Shown here piece after piece: positions 55,271 through 63,127 of a stretch of 64,000 bases of DNA. Source of the DNA: a candidate division WOR-3 bacterium (lineage in GTDB: Bacteria; Hydrothermota; Tepidihabitantia; Tepidihabitantales; Tepidihabitantaceae); the NCBI GenBank assembly GCA_016867815.1, contig VGIR01000001.1:62001-126000 (forward strand), read 5' to 3'. The first letter of the stretch is position 1. Every line of letters starts with the position of its first letter. The position numbers were made by a program, and so were the translations under genes. The notes below the pieces were generated by a model. The model was given only the letters and a program-made list of their open reading frames with translations, was not told the DNA's origin and ran no database searches.

Positions 55271-56146
55271 GTGATAGGCGCACTCTTCTGGAGTCTCCGG
55301 CCGAAGCAGTGGCCGAAGAACCTGCTGGTGCTCGCCGGACTGGTCTTCTCCCTCAACCTCTTCAACCTGACCGACTTGCTCCGATCCCTGGCAGGGCTCG
55401 TCGCGTTCTGCCTTCTCTCCGGATCGGTCTACATTGTCAACGACCTGATGGACGTGGAGAAGGACCGGCTCCACCCGTTGAAGCGCCTCCGACCGATTGC
55501 ATCGGGGCGGCTGCAGCCCGGCGCGGCCAGGGTCGCGGCCGCAGTCGCGGCCATCCTGGCACTGGCTGGGGGCTTCGTGCTCGATTGGCGGTTCGGGGTG
55601 GTGGGTCTTGCCTACTTTGTGCTGGAAGTCGCGTACTCATTCCGGCTGAAACATGTGGTCGTGCTGGATGTGATGACGGTCGCAGCCGGGTTTGCCCTGC
55701 GGGCGGTCGCGGGCACGGTTCTGGTGCACGTCACCATTTCATCGTGGCTCTTCGTCTGTACGATCCTGTTCGCCCTCTTCGTCTCACTGGCCAAGCGCCG
55801 GCACGAACTCGTCACCCTGCAGGACGGTGGAGCCGGACACCGGGCAGTGTTGGAGAACTACTCGGAACCGCTGCTCGACCAGATGATGGCGGTGGCGACT
55901 TCGGCGACCGTGATTGCCTACTGTCTATACACGATTGCTCCGGAGACAGTCGCCAAGTTCGGCACCCACAGTCTGATGTTGACTGTCCCGTTCGTGCTCT
56001 ACGCGGTGTACCGCTATCTGTACCTGGTCTATCGGAAGGAGATGGGCGGCGCGCCGGAGCAGGCGCTTTGGGGTGATCTGCCGCTCATGGTCGACGTGCT
56101 GCTCTGGATGGCCAGCGTAGTCGCAATCATCTACTTGAGAATCTAG
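55271..56146 (+). CDS. decaprenyl-phosphate phosphoribosyltransferase-like UbiA protein
   Basis: The protein is 291 residues with eight or nine membrane helices. The first Asp-rich motif NDLMDVEKDRLHPLKRLRP, with the Lys-Arg-Arg-Pro extension, is the signature of the DPPR-synthase branch of the UbiA family; the second is DVMTVAAGFALRAVAG. The family moves phosphoribose from PRPP to a polyprenyl phosphate, giving an arabinose donor in actinobacteria. Outside that group its end product is unclear. It ends within 4 nt of the convergent oxidoreductase gene. Confidence 0.87.
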   Translation: MIGALFWSLRPKQWPKNLLVLAGLVFSLNLFNLTDLLRSLAGLVAFCLLSGSVYIVNDLMDVEKDRLHPLKRLRPIASGRLQPGAARVAAAVAAILALAGGFVLDWRFGVVGLAYFVLEVAYSFRLKHVVVLDVMTVAAGFALRAVAGTVLVHVTISSWLFVCTILFALFVSLAKRRHELVTLQDGGAGHRAVLENYSEPLLDQMMAVATSATVIAYCLYTIAPETVAKFGTHSLMLTVPFVLYAVYRYLYLVYRKEMGGAPEQALWGDLPLMVDVLLWMASVVAIIYLRI

Positions 56147-57318
56147 GCGGGGAGAAGCGCGCACTCGGCGAGCTTCGCCTTGCCGCACGCGGCCTTGTCG
56201 CCGAACGGCCCCTGGCGGATGGCGCAGAGCTCGGCCTGTGACTCGGCGATGACCTGCTCGGTTTCCGGGCTTGAGCCGATGACCTGCGCGGCGGCGTGGG
56301 CGCCGGCCACCCGGCCTTCGAGCATGGCGGTCGAGGCCTCCTCGATGCCGGATACGTCGCCGGCAAGGTAGATGTGGCAAAGGCTGGTTTGCATCGCCTG
56401 GTTGTGCCAGGCGACGTGTCCGCCGAGCTCAGGAACGTAGACCATCCGGCAGCCTGACTGCCAGAGCAGCTCCGATAGAGGGGTCAGGCCGACAGCGAGG
56501 CAGATGGTATCGACCTGCAGTTTGCGGGCGGTGCCGGCAAGTGGTTTGAAGTCCTCGCCTACCCGGCAGATAACCGCGCCTTCTACCTCCTCCTTGCCGA
56601 CGGCGGAGAGGACGGTGTGCGACGTGAGGATGGGCACACCGAGACGGGCGAGCTTGGCGGCGTGGACGTGGTACCCTCCGATCCGGGGCAGGGCTTCGAC
56701 CACGGCCGCGACCTCGATGCTGGCCTGGATGAGCTGGTAGGAGACAATCAGGCCTATGTTGCCGGACCCGACCATCAGGACCCGGGTACCGGGCTTGACA
56801 CCGTGGACATTCATCAAGGTCTGGACCGCGCCAGCGCCGTAGACGCCGGGCAGGTCGTTGTTCTCAAACAGGAGGTTGTTCTCGGCCGCGCCGGTCGCCA
56901 CTATGAGGCACTTGAAACCCAGCTTGGTGAATCGCTCGCGGCTGGCGAGCGCGAGCATCCCCTGCGAGATCGAAGGTGGAGGCTCAGCGGCAAAGAGGTC
57001 GCCTTGCGCCGGTCTTGGAGTAGGCTTGGCTGGTTTCCGGGTGACGGAGGGGTAGAGGCCGACGACCGATGTGCCGGGGAGGATTTCGGCGGAGAGGGTG
57101 CGGAGTTCCTGTTCGAAGATGGCCGCGATGTCCATGCCGCGCGTGCCGCAGTAGTGACGCTTGGACCCGAAGAACTTGTGGGTCTGTTTCACAAGCTGGC
57201 CGCCGAGGCTGTCATTGTCGTCAATCAACACGACCTTGGCACCAAGCCGGGACGCGGCGATGGCGGCGCAGAGCCCGGCCGGGCCGCCGCCGACGATGGC
57301 AACATCAGTCTGTTTCAT
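56143..57318 (-). CDS. FAD-dependent oxidoreductase (HcnB/opine-dehydrogenase-like alpha subunit)
   Basis: The protein is 391 residues. It has an N-terminal FAD-binding GGGPAGLCAAIAA (residues 10-22), a second dinucleotide site GSGNIGLIVSY, and IYLAGDVSGIEEASTA near the C-terminus. It matches the large NAD(P)/FAD subunit of hydrogen-cyanide-synthase-, sarcosine-oxidase- and opine-dehydrogenase-like complexes. The 2Fe-2S subunit gene is just upstream. The usual third partner, a DAO-type FAD subunit, is not in the window. Confidence 0.85.
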   Translation of the reverse strand: MKQTDVAIVGGGPAGLCAAIAASRLGAKVVLIDDNDSLGGQLVKQTHKFFGSKRHYCGTRGMDIAAIFEQELRTLSAEILPGTSVVGLYPSVTRKPAKPTPRPAQGDLFAAEPPPSISQGMLALASRERFTKLGFKCLIVATGAAENNLLFENNDLPGVYGAGAVQTLMNVHGVKPGTRVLMVGSGNIGLIVSYQLIQASIEVAAVVEALPRIGGYHVHAAKLARLGVPILTSHTVLSAVGKEEVEGAVICRVGEDFKPLAGTARKLQVDTICLAVGLTPLSELLWQSGCRMVYVPELGGHVAWHNQAMQTSLCHIYLAGDVSGIEEASTAMLEGRVAGAHAAAQVIGSSPETEQVIAESQAELCAIRQGPFGDKAACGKAKLAECALLPA

Positions 57319-57332
57319 GACAGTTCAGAGTT

Positions 57333-57394
57333 CAGAATCCAGAAACCAGAGTTCATGGCTGCCTGCAACTCTGGATTCTGGTCTCTGGATTCTG
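57333..57394. repeat. CCAGAATC word-repeat hairpin
   Basis: Left arm CAGAATCCAGAAACCAGAG (57333-57351) pairs with the inverted right arm CTCTGGATTCTGGTCTCTGG (57369-57388). It fills the gap between the two oxidoreductase subunit genes. Confidence 0.85.
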
Positions 57395-57407
57395 CATTGT
57401 CCTGCTC

Positions 57408-57743
57408 CTAGGGGAGCTTTCCCCGGCCGCGCTGGCGCTCAACGTTCGCGCCCTCGTGCAGAGGTTCCATGCAGACCATGGTATTGGGCTGACCATCCAC
57501 AATCATCAGGCAGGAAGCGCACTTGCCCACCGCGCAGAAGAAGCCGCGGGCACGTTCGGTCTTCTCCGCGTGCCGGAAGAGCCGGATGCCGTTTGCCGCA
57601 AGTGCGGCCGCGACCGTCTCGCCCCGGCGTCCCTGTAGCGGCCGACCCTCGAAGAAGAACTTCACAGGCCCTTTGTCCTCGAAGGTCAGTATCGGGTGTC
57701 GGCTGATCCGACTGCCGCGCGATTCGGCATTCGTCATTCGCAT
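57408..57743 (-). CDS. (2Fe-2S)-binding protein, HcnA/SoxA-N-like subunit
   Basis: About 111 residues. A plant-type ferredoxin fold with ligands in CAVGKCASC and MVC (C-x4-C-x2-C, then a fourth Cys). VKFFFEGRPLQGRRGETVAAALAANG is typical of the small subunit of opine/HCN/sarcosine oxidoreductases. It would pass electrons from the FAD subunit. The start is uncertain (ATG 57743 or 57737); both fall in a GAATGCGAATGACGAATGCC word repeat, so the first ~10 residues are probably not ancestral. Confidence 0.82.
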   Translation of the reverse strand: MRMTNAESRGSRISRHPILTFEDKGPVKFFFEGRPLQGRRGETVAAALAANGIRLFRHAEKTERARGFFCAVGKCASCLMIVDGQPNTMVCMEPLHEGANVERQRGRGKLP

Positions 57744-57756
57744 TCCGGACTTCTGC

Positions 57757-58536
57757 CTAGAGGTTCTTGCGCGCATACTCAACCGCGTTTCGAAAGATGG
57801 CTATGCCGTGCGGTTCGTCAACTCGTTCTCGATGCCAGCGAGGGTGCTGCTCGCGGCGCACGAATCTCTCCGGATGCGGCATCAGCCCGAAGACGCGGCC
57901 GGTCCGGTCGCAAATGCCGGCGACGTTATCCTCGGAGCCGTTGGGGTTGTCCGGGAATCCGGGTGGGTCGCCGTTCAGCGTGGTGTAGCGAAGGCAGACC
58001 TGGCGGTTGTCAATGAGGCGGCGGAGGATCGCTGCCGACTTCGCGAGGAACTTGCCCTCGGCGTGCGCCACGGGCAGGTACATGGGCGATTCGATGCTGC
58101 GGGTGAAGATGCCGGGCGAGTCCTCGACGCTGAGATACACCCAGCGGTCTTCGTACCGGCCGCAATCGTTGGTGTCGAGGGTCACGGTCTGCGGCTCGAA
58201 CGGCCGCTCAAAAGCAGGTAGGAGACCGCATTTGACCAGGACCTGGAATCCGTTGCAGATGCCGAGCACGAGCTTGCCGTCGGCTATGAACTCCTCGATC
58301 TGGTCGCGCAGGAAGTGCTTTAGCTCGTTGGCAAAGATCCGGCCGGAGGCGATGTAGTCGCCGTATGAGAAACCGCCCGGTATCAGCAGGATATGAAAGT
58401 CCTTGATCTTCCGCTCACCCGAGCGGAACCGGTTGACGTGGACGACCTCCGGGACCGCGCCGACCAGTTCAAAGGCGTAGGCCGATTCCTGGTCGCAGTT
58501 GGTGCCGGCGGCAAAAAGTACACAGGCTTTGACCAC
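57757..58536 (-). CDS. purQ: phosphoribosylformylglycinamidine synthase subunit PurQ
   Basis: The protein is 259 residues, a class I glutamine amidotransferase. Nucleophile C94 in GICNGFQ, with His and Glu in MPHPERF near the C-terminus (~220). It supplies ammonia to the PurL subunit in purine synthesis. The GTG start is 8 nt after a -10 box, so the mRNA is predicted leaderless. purL and purS are not in the window; here it heads a minus-strand unit with the oxidoreductase genes. Confidence 0.92.
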   Translation of the reverse strand: MVKACVLFAAGTNCDQESAYAFELVGAVPEVVHVNRFRSGERKIKDFHILLIPGGFSYGDYIASGRIFANELKHFLRDQIEEFIADGKLVLGICNGFQVLVKCGLLPAFERPFEPQTVTLDTNDCGRYEDRWVYLSVEDSPGIFTRSIESPMYLPVAHAEGKFLAKSAAILRRLIDNRQVCLRYTTLNGDPPGFPDNPNGSEDNVAGICDRTGRVFGLMPHPERFVRREQHPRWHRERVDEPHGIAIFRNAVEYARKNL

Positions 58537-58637: not shown

Positions 58638-58665
58638 TTGACTTTGACCCTTGGCAACCTACAAT
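58638..58665 (+). promoter_or_regulatory. sigma70-type promoter, leaderless
   Basis: TTGACT at 58638-58643, 16-nt spacer, TACAAT at 58660-58665; the ATG at 58672 is 6 nt after the -10 box. Confidence 0.75.
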
Positions 58666-58671
58666 TCGGTG

Positions 58672-59565
58672 ATGAAAGTCGGTGTTCCCCGGGCCCTGCT
58701 GTACCATCGCTACGGCCAGTTCTGGGAGCAGTACCTCACCGGCCTTGGGGCCGAGGTCGTGGTCAGCCGTCGGACGGACAAGGTTCTGCTGCAGACCGGA
58801 CTGGGGTACGTTTCCAGCGAGGTCTGCCTGCCGATCAAGATCATGGCCGGCCACATTGAGGAACTGGCCGGGCAGGTTGACGCGCTGTTCCTGCCTCGTC
58901 TGCTCTGGCTCGAGGACAAGCTCTACGCCTGCCCGAAGATGATCGGCATCGTGGATATCGCGCGTATGATGCTTGGTGACCGCGTGCGGATTGTCGCGCC
59001 GAAGATCCAGGGCAGTCTCTGGCTGCCGCACTTTGGTGCCGGGATGGATTTGTGCCATGACCCCGTGCGCGTAGTCCGGGCACTGGCCCGGGCCGGCAAG
59101 GTCCTGCCGGTCCACAACCAGGTTCCAGATTTCCCAGCGGGCGAGAAGCGTGTTGCCCTTATCGGCCACTTCTACAATCTCGGGGACGACTTCATCTCGC
59201 GGCCCATGATCGATACGTTCACCAGCCACGGCTACCGCATCTGCACCAAGGATGAACTGCCGGAGATGGTGCTGCGCAGCCGCCAGGGCTTTGCCCGGAG
59301 CATCCGCTGGGTATACGAACGGGAGTTGTACAACGCGTTTCGATTTCTGGTCGACAAGGTCGGCGGAGTATGCATGATCGTTTCGATGGGATGCGGCCCG
59401 GATTCGCTCGTGGCCGAGTTCATGCGCGAAGAGGCACAGCAGCGGGACATCCCTTTCCTGCAGCTCGTCATCGACGAGCACACCGGCACGGCCGGGATCG
59501 TGACCCGGATTGAGGCATTCCTGGAACTTGCAGAGCGGCGGCGGTCCCGGCCAAAGGCCGCCTGA
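58672..59565 (+). CDS. DUF2229-type CoA-dehydratase-activase-related protein
   Basis: The protein is 297 residues from the ATG directly behind the promoter. It matches the DUF2229/HgdB-like domain (VGVPRALLYHRYGQFWEQYL, SSEVCLPIKIMAGHIEEL, CGPDSLVAEFM, IDEHTGTAGIVTRIEAFLE). In other bacteria this domain is fused to two BadF ATPase domains in one giant protein; here it is a separate gene. Conserved Cys residues may bind a [4Fe-4S] cluster. Function in the family is unproven. Confidence 0.82.
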   Translation: MKVGVPRALLYHRYGQFWEQYLTGLGAEVVVSRRTDKVLLQTGLGYVSSEVCLPIKIMAGHIEELAGQVDALFLPRLLWLEDKLYACPKMIGIVDIARMMLGDRVRIVAPKIQGSLWLPHFGAGMDLCHDPVRVVRALARAGKVLPVHNQVPDFPAGEKRVALIGHFYNLGDDFISRPMIDTFTSHGYRICTKDELPEMVLRSRQGFARSIRWVYERELYNAFRFLVDKVGGVCMIVSMGCGPDSLVAEFMREEAQQRDIPFLQLVIDEHTGTAGIVTRIEAFLELAERRRSRPKAA

Positions 59566-59580
59566 TCCGCGCGCCCGCAA

Positions 59581-60645
59581 ATGAAAGCATCGTTCCCCAA
59601 CGTCGGCTATGACACGTATGCGCTGAAGACGTTCCTCGAGGACCTCGGGGCAGAAGTAATCCCGGCGCCGCCGAACTCCCGTCGGACGATCGAACTGGGG
59701 TCGCTGCATTCGCCCGAGCTGATCTGCATGCCGTTCAAGATCACGCTCGGGAACATGCTGGAGGCCCTGGAGCTTGGAGCGGACACGATGTTCATGGCGG
59801 CGGGGGCACGCAAGTGCCGGTTCGGGTACTACCACTATCTGCAGGAGCAGGCTCTGAAGAACCTCGGCAAAGAATGCCGTTTCATCCCGGTGACCCAGTA
59901 CTCACCGCTGGACTTCGTCTTCAGGATCATGCCCGGGGTCTTCGGCGTGCCTCCGTGGCGGGTCGTCCGCGCAGTCGCGAAGATGCTGGCCAAGAGCCAA
60001 CTGACCCAGGAATTCAGGCAGCACCTGAACCGGAAGATGGCGGTCGACTTTGATGGCGCGGAGCAGGCCAAGCCGAAAGCTCTGGCGATCATCGAACAAG
60101 CCCACACCCTGAGAGAGATCCAGGCGGCGCGCGGCGAGGTCAGGAGGATATTCAACCTGAACGGTCTTCAACCCCAGGTCCGGCTGGGGCTCGTCGGGGA
60201 GATCTACTTCATGATTGAGCAGTTTGCCAGCCAGGAGATCGAAAAGGAACTGGGCAAGATGGGCGCCGAAGTAGTGTTCGAGCGCAGCCTGTACCGCCAT
60301 ATCCGCCACCTGCTCTCTTCGGACCCGGCGTTCGTGCGTTCGGAGCGTCTGGCGCGCCGCTACCTGCAGGAGTCACCCGGCGGCGAGGCAATCAGGACGG
60401 TGGGTGAGGCGGTTCACTTCCAGAAGCAGGGCCTGGATGGTATCGTACATATCTTCCCGTTCACCTGCATGCCGGAGAATATCGCGCTCGAGGCCTTGCA
60501 GAAGTTGTCTGAGGATACGGGCATACCGGTCCTGTCGCTTTCGTTTGACGAGCACACGTCGCGGACGGGTCTGCTTACGCGGCTCGAAGCGTTTGTCGAC
60601 CTGGTGAAGAGGAGAAAGCTTGGTCGAAGCCTACATCGGAATTGA
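59581..60645 (+). CDS. DUF2229/HgdB-like activase-related protein
   Basis: The protein is 354 residues, paralogous in layout to the gene before it (15 nt upstream). ELICMPFKITLGNMLEALE, GARKCRFGYYHYLQEQ, FPFTCMPENIALEAL and FDEHTSRTGLLTRLEAF correspond to the same conserved regions, with Cys residues as possible cluster ligands. Its last 26 nt overlap the BadF-type ATPase gene, so the three products are probably made together as a complex. Confidence 0.82.
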   Translation: MKASFPNVGYDTYALKTFLEDLGAEVIPAPPNSRRTIELGSLHSPELICMPFKITLGNMLEALELGADTMFMAAGARKCRFGYYHYLQEQALKNLGKECRFIPVTQYSPLDFVFRIMPGVFGVPPWRVVRAVAKMLAKSQLTQEFRQHLNRKMAVDFDGAEQAKPKALAIIEQAHTLREIQAARGEVRRIFNLNGLQPQVRLGLVGEIYFMIEQFASQEIEKELGKMGAEVVFERSLYRHIRHLLSSDPAFVRSERLARRYLQESPGGEAIRTVGEAVHFQKQGLDGIVHIFPFTCMPENIALEALQKLSEDTGIPVLSLSFDEHTSRTGLLTRLEAFVDLVKRRKLGRSLHRN

Positions 60646-61573
60646 CGTCGGTTCCATCTCAACCAAGGGGGTAGTGGTTGACCGCAAGTTCAACGTCCTC
60701 GCCAGCCGCTACCTGCGCACGCAGGGCAACCCGATAGACTCCATCCGGCGGCTGCTCGCCGAACTGGGCGCGCAGGTCGACACCGGCATCAGAATCCTGG
60801 GGGCGGGGACGACCGGTTCAGCTCGCCGGCTGGCCGGCGTGATGGTGCAGGCCGACATCGTCAAGAACGAAATCATCACCCACGCCGTCGCGGCCAGCCA
60901 CTTCCATCCTGAGGTCAGGACCGTTATCGAAATCGGGGGGCAGGACTCGAAGATAATCATCCTGCGTGATGCCATCCCCGTGGACTTCGCCATGAACACG
61001 GTCTGCGCCGCCGGGACCGGTTCCTTCCTCGACCATCAGGCGACGCGACTGGGACGCCCGATCGAGGAGTTCGGCGGGCTGGCGCTGCGGGCCAAGAACC
61101 GGGTGAACATCGCCGGCCGCTGCACGGTCTTCGCCGAAAGCGACATGATCCACAAGGCCCAGCTCGGCATTTCGACCGAGGACATCGTGGCCGGGCTGTG
61201 TGACGCCATCGTCCGCAACTACATGAACACCGTAGCCAAGGGCAAAGAGATACACCCGCTGGTTCTCTTTCAGGGCGGGGTCGCGGCCAACGTCGGGGTC
61301 AAGAAGGCGTTCGAGCTTATGCTGGGACACGAAGTGCTCGTGCCGGAGCACTTCCTGGTCATGGGTGCGGTCGGGGCGGCGATTGTCGCCTCGGAAGAGA
61401 CTGACGGCAAGGGCACGCGGTTCGCAGGCTTCAACGTCGCGGATACGGCGTTCGAGACGCGGGCCTTCGAGTGTGAGGGCTGCCCGAACCGTTGCGAGGT
61501 GATCGAGACTCTGCGCGAGTTGAAGGTGATCGACCGGTACGGGGACCGGTGCGGAAAGTGGTCGAAGCTCTAG
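60620..61573 (+). CDS. BadF/BadG/BcrA/BcrD-type ATPase (acyl-CoA dehydratase activase)
   Basis: The protein is 317 residues of the ASKHA ATPase fold. YIGIDVGSISTKGVVVD is the phosphate loop, IEIGGQDSK and QGGVAANVGV complete the nucleotide site. The two Cys ligands that hold a [4Fe-4S] cluster between subunits of HgdC-type activases are present (VCAAGTGSF and GRCTVFAESDM). A C-terminal CEGCPNRCEV may hold another cluster. Such activases drive one-electron reductions at low potential using ATP. No 2-hydroxyacyl-CoA dehydratase gene is adjacent; the partner is the two DUF2229 proteins. Confidence 0.88.
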   Translation: MVEAYIGIDVGSISTKGVVVDRKFNVLASRYLRTQGNPIDSIRRLLAELGAQVDTGIRILGAGTTGSARRLAGVMVQADIVKNEIITHAVAASHFHPEVRTVIEIGGQDSKIIILRDAIPVDFAMNTVCAAGTGSFLDHQATRLGRPIEEFGGLALRAKNRVNIAGRCTVFAESDMIHKAQLGISTEDIVAGLCDAIVRNYMNTVAKGKEIHPLVLFQGGVAANVGVKKAFELMLGHEVLVPEHFLVMGAVGAAIVASEETDGKGTRFAGFNVADTAFETRAFECEGCPNRCEVIETLRELKVIDRYGDRCGKWSKL

Positions 61574-61687
61574 AGGACACCGAGCGCCAAACGACGATTG
61601 ACGAACTGCGGACGGGAATGTAGGGTGATGGCGATGGGTGCGATGGTACTCGCTTTGCTGGTATGCGCGCAACCAAAGGAGGCTAGG

Positions 61688-63127
61688 GTGGCAAGACAGC
61701 CGGCAGTTGCAGGGCAGTTCTATCCGGGTGATGCGAAGACTCTGACCGCGATGGTTGACTCGATGCTCGCGGATGCAGAGGTACCGGCCATTTCCGGTAC
61801 GCTCATCGGAATCCAGGTGCCGCACGCGGGCTATCCCTTCTCCGGGCCGACCGCGGCACGTGCATTCAAACTGCTGCAGGGCATGGATTCGGTCACGGTC
61901 GTGATGCTCGGTACGAGTCACCACGTCATGCTCAGGAACGCGGCTTTGTACGCCAAGGGGGCCTGGCACACGCCGCTCGGCGACGTAGCGATTGATGAGG
62001 GATTGGCAAAAGCGATTCTGGCGCAGGACAAGTTCTTCGTCGATATGCCCGAGGCTCATGCCAGGGAGCATTCGATCGAGGTCGAAGTGCCGTTCCTGCA
62101 GCGCATCCTCTCTGACTTCAAGATCGTGCCGATCATGCTGTTGCAGCCTACCTTTGAGCAGTGCGAGCGGGTCGGTAAGGCAGTGGCCGCGGCCGTCCAG
62201 GGCAGAAAGGTCGTGTTGCTCGCATCTACCGACCTCTACCATGGAGAATCGTACGATGATGCCAACCGCATCGACCGGACCGCCGTCGAACTGATGGCGA
62301 AGTTTGACCCTCAAGCCTTTCACGCGGCGTACGAACGCGACGAGGCCCAGGCGTGCGGGGCGAATGCGGTTACCGTGATGATGGTCGCTGCCCGCAAGCT
62401 GGGTGCGGATACCGCGGTCGTCCTGGCCCAGACCAATTCCAACGATGTGACCGGCGAACGCGGCGGATACTGTGTGGGCTACAGCGCGGTTGCGTTCGTG
62501 GCATCCGGGAAGGGATCAACGGGGAACGATGAACGAGGAACGATGAACGAGCTTGTCCCAAGCGACGACCTGAATGAGCGGGAACAGAAGAGCCTGCTCG
62601 GGATCGCCCGCAGCACGATTGAGAGCTACATTCGAACCGGCAAGATACCCGAGGCTAAGCCCTTGACGCCGAAGCTGAGTGAGAAGTTCGGGGCATTCGT
62701 CACCCTGCACGAACGCGGGCAGTTGCGTGGCTGTATCGGCTACATCGAGGCGCTGAAGCCGCTCTTTCAGACGGTGAGGGACATGGCGGTGGCCGCCTCA
62801 ACCGAGGACCCGAGGTTCCGCCCTGTTGAAGCCGGCGAGTTGGATGGAGTCGACATCGAGATAACCGTGCTGAGCCCGATGCGCACGGTTCCGAGCCCGG
62901 ATTCAGTCGTGGTCGGCAAACACGGAGTGGTGATCAGGAAGGCGGGTCGTGGTGCCGTGTTCCTGCCGCAAGTCCCGGTCGAGCAAGGCTGGGACCGGAA
63001 CACCTACCTCTCCGAGCTATGTCTCAAGGCGCAACTGCCTCGCGATGCGTGGAAGAGCCCGGACGCCAAGTTCTCCGTCTTCACCGGGCAGGTCTTCGGC
63101 GAGAAGCAACTCGGCCGGCAGCAGTAG
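61688..63127 (+). CDS. MEMO1-AMMECR1 fusion (AmmeMemoRadiSam proteins B and A)
   Basis: About 479 residues from a GTG with AAGGAGG 5 nt upstream. Residues 1-~270 are a MEMO1-like dioxygenase fold with the expected metal residues (VPHAGYPFSG, TSHHV, STDLYHGE, ACGANAV). Residues ~295-475 are an AMMECR1 domain (GAFVTLHERGQLRGCIGYIEA, ITVLSPM, KAGRGAVFLPQVP). The two, with a radical SAM protein, form the AmmeMemoRadiSam set of unknown role; the radical SAM gene is not in this window. An ATG at 61628 would add a hydrophobic N-terminus ending LLVCAQ. The linker at 62516-62556 is repeat-encoded. Confidence 0.87.
   Translation: MARQPAVAGQFYPGDAKTLTAMVDSMLADAEVPAISGTLIGIQVPHAGYPFSGPTAARAFKLLQGMDSVTVVMLGTSHHVMLRNAALYAKGAWHTPLGDVAIDEGLAKAILAQDKFFVDMPEAHAREHSIEVEVPFLQRILSDFKIVPIMLLQPTFEQCERVGKAVAAAVQGRKVVLLASTDLYHGESYDDANRIDRTAVELMAKFDPQAFHAAYERDEAQACGANAVTVMMVAARKLGADTAVVLAQTNSNDVTGERGGYCVGYSAVAFVASGKGSTGNDERGTMNELVPSDDLNEREQKSLLGIARSTIESYIRTGKIPEAKPLTPKLSEKFGAFVTLHERGQLRGCIGYIEALKPLFQTVRDMAVAASTEDPRFRPVEAGELDGVDIEITVLSPMRTVPSPDSVVVGKHGVVIRKAGRGAVFLPQVPVEQGWDRNTYLSELCLKAQLPRDAWKSPDAKFSVFTGQVFGEKQLGRQQ

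Follow-up and report, generated by a model that had tools for sequence, protein, structure and literature searches.

Known members of the BCR/HAD superfamily carry out radical dehydration or Birch-type reduction at potentials that few enzymes reach, and the cost is paid by ATP. What such a system does when its activase is coupled to two DUF2229 proteins, with no dehydratase nearby, is the question raised by the window analyzed here, a stretch of 64,000 nucleotides from an uncultured anaerobe, a candidate division WOR-3 bacterium (contig VGIR01000001.1, positions 62,001 to 126,000 of the forward strand). The three genes belong to a known kind of system, of which they form a divergent branch. 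They probably encode an ATP-driven low-potential electron-transfer enzyme, in which proteins A and B are the acceptor pair and the substrate is probably not a known acyl-CoA.

The operon and its relatives

The genes of A, B and the activase form a tight operon on the forward strand. Protein A (58672..59565, 297 aa) is a DUF2229 / BCR-HAD-fold subunit with an ATG start codon, and an alternative TTG at 58651 is possible. After a gap of 15 nt it is followed by protein B (59581..60645, 354 aa), a DUF2229-like / BCR-HAD-fold subunit, the gene of which overlaps by 26 nt with that of a BadF/HgdC-type activase (60620..61573, 317 aa). The TTG start of the activase at 60620 is preceded by AGGAG at 60610-60614. 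A Memo-AMMECR1 fusion (AmmeMemoRadiSam B+A, 61598..63127, same strand) starts 24 nt past the activase stop. The HGD-D matches on the window's contig were A and B only, in agreement with the original prediction of three coupled genes without a nearby dehydratase. A phmmer search of 80 broader loci with the two dehydratase queries from contig C5 of the same genome (E ≤ 1e-5) returned no match near the triad, and this weak search missed A and B as well.

Of the 80 broader loci, 72 had A and B next to the activase and six had an activase without A or B nearby; three of the 80 are the same DNA as loci from the window's own phylum. Among 28 genomes of the window's order, 25 contained full-length A, and together these counts indicated that the arrangement is not due to chance. 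Split A was also found at full length in nearly every genome of one clostridial class (35/37), A was detected in archaeal, chloroflexotal and other records, and the triad was seen in WOR-3, Dehalococcoidia and one Asgard record. Clostridia often have the split form, other anaerobes have it as well, and it is not peculiar to the window's genome. Some genomes had one activase for two A/B pairs. In a survey with one protein query (E ≤ 1e-5), by which distant copies may be missed, a DUF2229-A match was present in 1 of 18 genomes with COX1 versus 77 of 129 without it (Fisher p = 1.3e-5). The same comparison by family gave 1/6 versus 18/31 with a p value of only 0.09, and the contrast may therefore reflect relatedness.

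It had been stated in the original prediction that these parts are fused in one large protein elsewhere, and this was borne out by all seven fused proteins examined (~1400 aa), which had the order activase1-activase2-A-B. From this order, the split genes correspond to the fused protein minus activase1. A natural A-B fusion of 701 aa was found in locus L119. A second candidate, a 721-aa frame in L163, was dropped for the N-run inside it, and the long frames in L105 were judged by eye to be over-extended gene calls.

The activase of the window scored 164.9 bits against PF01869 (cut-off 31.5) and 183.4 bits against TIGR00241 (cut-off 125.4). Its Cys129 and Cys168 are at the conserved cluster positions, and both were kept in 32 of 32 activases. 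A C-terminal tail, C285-x2-C288-x3-C292-x18-C311 (residues 285-311, DNA 61472..61552, forward strand), was present in the A/B-paired activases, whereas the C5 activase and fused activase1 lacked it. The single A/B-paired activase without the tail Cys, that of L073, is N-masked, and L168 is the same DNA. No C-x2-C was found between the two activase domains in any of the seven fused proteins when the whole stretch was checked. The activase tree was built from 55 rows, with 23 of the 80 loci used and six near copies and X-holding rows excluded. In this tree, 18 split activases of the window's phylum formed one clade (SH-aLRT 99), L070 of the same phylum fell outside it, and fused activase1 and fused activase2 formed one clade each; the outgroup branch was very long.

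Fold and invariant cysteines of A and B

Both proteins passed PF09989/DUF2229 (cut-off 29.4 bits), A with 111.2 bits and B with 42.2 bits. The description of the two as DUF2229 proteins thus held in part, with B a weak member and DUF2229 spanning only part of each protein. The AF2 models reached a pLDDT of 95.6 for A and 94.6 for B, with a pTM of 0.92 each. In Foldseek, the best 13 matches of A and the best 15 of B were all BCR/HAD enzymes (HadBC, DCCP, BzdNO, MbdON). By VIA-align, A matched 8s02_B over 252 residues (Z 15.1, rmsd 3.9) and B matched 6eno over 288 residues (Z 15.7, rmsd 4.1), and the first unrelated rows had Z values of 10.1 for A and 9.3 for B. Against 8s02_B, the aligned range was 1-290 in A and 1-345 in B. 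According to these models, A and B are each predicted to be a whole BCR/HAD-type module over the full length. The sequence similarity to solved relatives was found in the C-terminal part only.

Cys52, Cys87 and Cys241 of A were invariant in 61 of 61 rows of the broader set, and Cys49, Cys79 and Cys296 of B in 60 of 60. Exactly three invariant Cys per protein were also counted in 42 A and 42 B sequences from split pairs and fused proteins, which overlap with the broader set by three records, and the D268-E269-H270 motif of A was invariant in 42 of 42. Alignments A3 and A4 were made without L124 and L153 respectively, both cut by contig ends, after short, X-holding or over-480-aa frames and near-duplicates had been dropped. 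The third Cys of A and of B aligned with a Cys of both HadC and DCCP. In the A-B profile alignment, the second Cys of the two proteins stood in different columns, six residues apart, so this second ligand may not be equivalent in A and B.

In the available part of PMC11574389, HAD is described as pairing two homologous subunits, each with a three-Cys cluster, in a heterodimer, and its activase as having two cluster Cys per monomer. In that of PMC11971306, the [4Fe-4S]-OH2 of BzdO is held by three Cys and the [8Fe-9S] of BzdN by six; the available part of PMC12491067 concerns synthetic clusters. Judged from the alignments, the three Cys per subunit would suffice to bind a single [4Fe-4S] that leaves one iron open, as in HAD and BzdO. 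Six cluster Cys per subunit, as in the DCCP and BzdN type, were not found, three being invariant in A and three in B. The shared [4Fe-4S] site between A and B that had been proposed was consequently not supported as worded, and the three invariant Cys of each protein point to one cluster each.

Alternative readings of the triad

The electron-transfer part of our explanation is common to the readings of the triad as a dehydratase, as a double-cubane enzyme or as a reactivase, and so their probabilities overlap.

A divergent true 2-hydroxyacyl-CoA dehydratase, supplied with its CoA thioester from elsewhere in the cell, was considered unlikely. The fold, the number of Cys per subunit and the type of activase are all the same, and the C-terminus of B scored 32.7 bits against PF06050/HGD-D, above the cut-off of 28.4. 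However, this match ran through residues 227-340 only, the C-terminus of A stayed under the cut-off with 22.3 bits, and neither protein matched a dehydratase model along its whole length (PF06050, NCBIfam HAD). The scores of the NCBIfam HAD and double-cubane models were far under their cut-offs, with 10.2 bits of 700 for the HadC model on B, and 11.2 and 16.3 bits for A and B against NF040772 (DCCP, cut-off 350). When the profiles of A and B were compared with the single C5 dehydratase, the match was weak, with probabilities of 18 and 21% respectively, and covered the C-terminal end only. In addition, inspection by eye of the 46 listed neighbor clusters, each present in at least 3 of the 80 loci, revealed neither a CoA-transferase nor any other gene of acid fermentation.

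Slightly less probable still is a role as reactivase or maturase, in which A-B would hand electrons of very low potential to another protein instead of a metabolite, such as the AmmeMemoRadiSam radical SAM enzyme or a stalled metalloenzyme. In favor of it, Memo-AMMECR1 was located directly 3' of the activase in 12 of 14 loci of the window's family and also came after it in L091, and in L171, L085 and L173 the radical SAM partner was found downstream of A-B or the fused gene. The near universality of split A in the clostridial class also fits it, together with the fact that no conserved functional or metabolic partner was recognized among the neighbor clusters listed from the 80 broader loci. 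Against it, Memo/AMMECR1 was near the activase in only one of those loci (L091, a member of the window's activase clade), the radical SAM match of L155 was weak (23% identity), and two loci of the window's family, L053 and L055, had no Memo neighbor, the stretch of L053 extending only ~1 kb past the activase. Since 143 of the 147 genomes in the phylum carry the AmmeMemoRadiSam radical SAM gene and 146 of 147 carry POR_N, co-occurrence is uninformative for both. Among the matches listed, genes which we take to be SpoVAD-like, as named by eye, were found upstream in 12 loci, and presumed SpoVAC-like and SpoVAE-like genes in 10 each, but a sporulation role seemed less likely given that WOR-3, Dehalococcoidia and an Asgard record have the triad too. 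A search of titles in mostly open-access literature gave no published function for AmmeMemoRadiSam.

It appeared quite improbable that the triad is a double-cubane-type small-molecule reductase with an [8Fe-9S] cluster across the A-B interface. Three invariant Cys from each protein would give the six needed, and DCCP was among the closest folds of both, but we know of no cross-subunit double cubane. Moreover, the six cluster Cys of BzdN all lie within one subunit according to the available part of PMC11971306, and the two clusters of HAD are 12 Å apart according to that of PMC11574389.

A dehydratase elsewhere in the genome that pairs with the window's activase was sought as the case that would contradict the original prediction. 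None was found, since the dehydratase pair on contig C5 adjoins its own activase of the classical 256-aa type. That the window's activase serves this pair, with A and B as accessory or scaffold proteins, is hardly credible: the pair does exist in the same genome, but it has an activase of its own, and the window-type activase stands next to A/B in most of the broader loci (72/80). Moreover, where a genome had only one BadF match at E ≤ 1e-10, as five did (G157 and G166 of 6; G107, G119 and G101 of 18), this gene adjoins A/B by coordinates in every case. Among 20 genomes searched, 16 had an HGD-D match above 100 bits, and cross-talk with canonical dehydratases is therefore possible in these. 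The four genomes without such a match, like the five with a single BadF gene, favor an activase dedicated to A/B, but the four may be incomplete assemblies, and one of them, Caldicoprobacter, carries further BadF genes.

Proposed mechanism and comparison with known systems

The expectation of an acceptor pair like HgdAB was well supported by the fold, the three invariant Cys of each protein and the natural A-B fusion. Action on another substrate, as had been proposed, would fit the lack of recognized CoA-pathway genes among the neighbor clusters listed. For the electron-transfer enzyme which we prefer, a course of events can be proposed by homology. Two copies of the activase would share one [4Fe-4S] through Cys129 and Cys168 of each and would draw an electron from ferredoxin or flavodoxin. 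Binding and hydrolysis of ATP would then allow the activase to drive this electron into an A-B dimer, in which each subunit may hold one [4Fe-4S] on its three Cys. Storage and relay of the electron would fall to one of these clusters, while the second, in which one iron would be open, would reduce or dehydrate a widely conserved substrate. More tentatively, and with somewhat less confidence than in its opposite, the triad might be regarded as a third BCR/HAD branch: an ATP-driven, oxygen-shy reductase with an almost housekeeping role in strict anaerobes. Its substrate would not be a CoA thioester, its activase would carry a four-Cys metal site specific to the class, and in several lineages one activase would charge two different A-B pairs.

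The new results of this work are the predicted full-length BCR/HAD fold of A and B, the three invariant Cys in each, the identity of the fused form with the split form plus activase1, the four-Cys tail of the A/B-linked activase, and the spread of the split form among anaerobes. No published function was found for DUF2229, COG3580/3581 or the activases in the mostly open-access literature covered. A branch this widespread, for which the literature covered gave no substrate, marks a considerable gap in what is known of anaerobic biochemistry, and the common plan of fused and split forms, an activase with two three-Cys subunits, makes this gap testable. The split triad offers small separate proteins, and the single-activase genomes are suited to clean knock-out tests.

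The systems of HgdAB/HadBC with HgdC/HadI likewise have two homologous BCR/HAD-fold subunits with three conserved Cys each and a BadF-type ATPase in which two cluster Cys are conserved. The HadBC chains share only 11-16% identity with A and B over the fold. The triad also differs from these systems by the invariant D268-E269-H270 of A and by the four-Cys tail of the window's activase, and among the neighbor clusters listed, none was recognized as belonging to a CoA pathway. DCCP with DCCP-R resembles the triad in its fold, which A and B matched with Z 14.5 to 15.7, and in its ATP-driven activase, whereas it has six invariant Cys per protein instead of three, and A/B are two different subunits. 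To our knowledge, no physiological substrate has been assigned to DCCP/DCCP-R. The class I benzoyl-CoA reductases (BzdNOPQ, MbdONPQ) also have the fold of A and B, and their four-part build is resembled by the fused relative with its two activase and two reductase-fold domains. Their six-Cys subunit has no counterpart in A/B; with the BCR models the activase was far under the cut-offs, and A and B were absent among the matches listed. Methanogenesis marker 15 (TIGR03286) contains a piece like the end of B before its BadF domain, but only this short piece of B matched, and the scores of B (25.6 bits) and the activase (127.3 bits) were far under the cut-off of 455.75. In the fused DUF2229 proteins, the last three of the four parts, activase2-A-B, match the window's genes end to end with the four-Cys tail included. 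At their N-terminus these proteins have one more activase domain, which lacks the tail, whereas the split system has one activase, which is expected to act as a homodimer.

Gene order, fold and conserved cysteines of the split triad

The two DUF2229 proteins (A and B) and the BadF-type ATPase (the activase) were encoded in a single forward-strand block on contig C1 of the 3.37 Mb genome (95% complete). A (58672-59565) was separated by 15 nt from B (59581-60645), which overlapped the activase gene (60620-61573) by 26 nt, and a Memo-AMMECR1 fusion gene (61598-63127) was located 3' of the activase. Upstream of A, on the opposite strand, lay PurQ, a small Fer2 protein and a soxA-like FAD protein. 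The small Fer2_4 and soxA-like FAD proteins (56143-57782, minus strand) form a pair resembling the subunits of two-part amine or amino-acid dehydrogenases.

A and B were modelled confidently by AF2 (pLDDT 95.6 for A and 94.6 for B, pTM 0.92 each), and the top Foldseek ranks (1-13 for A, 1-15 for B) were all occupied by enzymes of the benzoyl-CoA reductase/2-hydroxyacyl-CoA dehydratase (BCR/HAD) fold. The VIA-align values were Z 15.1, rmsd 3.9 and 252 residues for A (first unrelated row, Z 10.1), and Z 15.7, rmsd 4.1 and 288 residues for B (first unrelated row, Z 9.3). A and B were paralogues (profile comparison, E 2e-41). Exactly three cysteines in each were invariant (42/42 each, covering split pairs 1 and 2 as well as the fused modules), and the three were found again in alignments of window A with 60 and window B with 59 homologues, which were taken from named records and had three records in common with the 42-row set. 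The third invariant cysteine aligned with a conserved cysteine of HadC and of the double-cubane cluster protein (DCCP). According to PMC11971306, BzdO carries a [4Fe-4S]-OH2 cluster on three cysteines and BzdN an [8Fe-9S] cluster on six; for HAD, PMC11574389 describes a three-cysteine [4Fe-4S] cluster per subunit, with the clusters 12 A apart, and an activase supplying two cysteines per monomer. Based on these cysteine counts, one [4Fe-4S] cluster is predicted in A and one in B, with no double cubane within either.

Split and fused forms and their distribution

Seven fused proteins of the same phylum (1353-1415 aa) were mapped with profiles of the split proteins. All seven showed the order activase (about 1-260), activase (about 300-650), A (about 640-1000) and B (about 970-1400), and the window activase matched the second activase domain end to end. 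Therefore, what is assigned to DUF2229 in the fused protein consists of two modules, and taking away the first activase domain would leave the equivalent of the split genes. The C-terminal four-cysteine tail of the window activase (C285-x2-C288-x3-C292-x18-C311) was present in the second activase domain in 7/7, and no C-x2-C was found between the two activase domains in any of the seven. A natural A+B single frame of 701 aa with a separate adjoining activase was observed in a Dehalococcoidia record (L119:6909-9014).

Among the best 80 of at least 582 activase-profile matches, A and B lay on the same strand beside the activase at 72 loci (65 A-B-activase, 3 A-activase-B, 1 B-A-activase, 1 activase-A-B, and 2 with B in two pieces); of the others, one had A only, one B only and six neither. 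The tail was found at 79/80 loci, the remaining one being N-masked. The records included Clostridia, Atribacteria, Actinomycetota, Dehalococcoidia, one Asgard archaeon and the phylum of the window, whose named records are labelled WOR-3, Stahlbacteria and Latescibacterota. Full-length A was present in 25/28 genomes of the window's order, with none in a fused-length frame among the matches listed. In the class around Thermoanaerobacter wiegelii, 35/37 genomes held an unbroken full-length A and 8/37 also a fused-length frame; the other two were T. wiegelii, with broken copies, and one genome with a partial match only. The A frames of T. wiegelii (G147, the genome of locus L098) were interrupted in two A-B loci (its C1:369532-371602 and C1:1803413-1805459), while A was intact in 35/36 other searched genomes of the class. 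Seven unannotated records of a phage collection (H1-H7), labelled Listeria, Enterococcus and other phages, contained relatives of A at about 24% identity; our guess is that they probably hold bacterial DNA.

COX1 occurred in 18/147 genomes of the phylum, and A was matched in 1/18 of these versus 77/129 without COX1 (p 1.3e-5). Counted by family, the contrast was 1/6 versus 18/31 (p 0.09), so shared descent may explain it.

Candidate partners of the activase and neighbouring genes

Five matches to the dehydratase family HGD-D (PF06050) were detected in the window's genome: two strong ones, both on contig C5, and weaker ones within A, B and a second DUF2229 pair (contig C7). Two BadF proteins exceeded the cut-off, the window activase and one of 256 aa beside the C5 pair. 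Since that dehydratase pair sits with its own activase, the result that would have refuted the original prediction, a pair elsewhere clearly belonging to the window activase, was not obtained. Judged from sequence, the same C5 cluster (L016:6601-14047) also encodes two UroD-like methyltransferases, a corrinoid protein and a DUF4445-type corrinoid activase. The C5 pair is apparently tied to corrinoid methyl transfer, and its cluster is reminiscent of the mlp gene clusters described in PMC10418091.

The second A-B pair, in this genome and relatives (L017:6818-8871 and L074-L081), had no adjoining activase. In L017, L080 and L081, genes that by eye resembled 2-oxoacid:ferredoxin oxidoreductases were located a few kb away; elsewhere, other genes adjoined.

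Twenty genomes, mostly named isolates, were hand-picked from the 80 loci. An HGD-D match above 100 bits was found in 16/20 but not in Hakubella, Caldicoprobacter algeriensis, a Halanaerobiales MAG and an Actinomycetes MAG, whose assemblies may be incomplete. Caldicoprobacter had two more BadF places, one fused-length, which counts against a simple reading of the activase as dedicated to A/B. Exactly one BadF match (E <= 1e-10) was found in G157 and G166 (6 searched) and in G107, G119 and G101 (18 searched), and in all five it adjoined A/B. Two A loci each were present in G107, G119 and G101 (the B of the second locus was seen in G107 and G119, L074 and L079), and A/B-type matches lay at two places in G157. 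Hence, in these four genomes, a single activase probably supplies electrons to both A-B pairs.

Across the 80 loci of the broader set, we recognised no conserved partner gene. Within the phylum, 12/14 loci of the window's family had Memo-AMMECR1 after the activase, at computed distances of -37 to +78 nt, and the gene likewise lay 3' of the activase in L091. In L171, L085 and L173, the gene for the radical SAM member of the AmmeMemoRadiSam system was located downstream of A-B or of the fused gene. This radical SAM family was present in 143/147 genomes of the phylum, so its co-occurrence is uninformative and the adjacency alone counts, as a lead. A HAD-type phosphatase and an ApbE-like flavin transferase (both by eye) accompanied the radical SAM gene 3' of A-B in G103 (L171:660-3350), whose BadF genes were on other contigs than A-B. 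Signal-peptide-like hydrophobic starts were seen by eye in Memo-AMMECR1 and radical SAM proteins (window 61598-63127; L172:2592-3686, minus; L085:10246-11403; L169:1510-2637, minus); if true, the radical SAM enzyme would be exported, which is odd.

Proposed mechanism and class assignment

Gene order, fold, cysteine pattern and the plan common to split and fused forms were established by computation. Homology gives good grounds for expecting an activase homodimer with a bridging [4Fe-4S] cluster, and ATP-driven electron transfer. A and B would form a heterodimer with one cluster per subunit, one serving as relay and the other as open-iron site. In our opinion, the substrate is most likely soluble, widely conserved and outside the known acyl-CoAs. 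In the literature searched, no paper on the function of the A/B-activase system was found.

The domain family of these proteins carries an unknown-function name and is part of a known superfamily. Sequence models speak against filing them as a 2-hydroxyacyl-CoA dehydratase, and the cysteine count against filing them as a double-cubane protein. On present evidence, A-B and the activase appear to work like an HgdAB/HgdC system.
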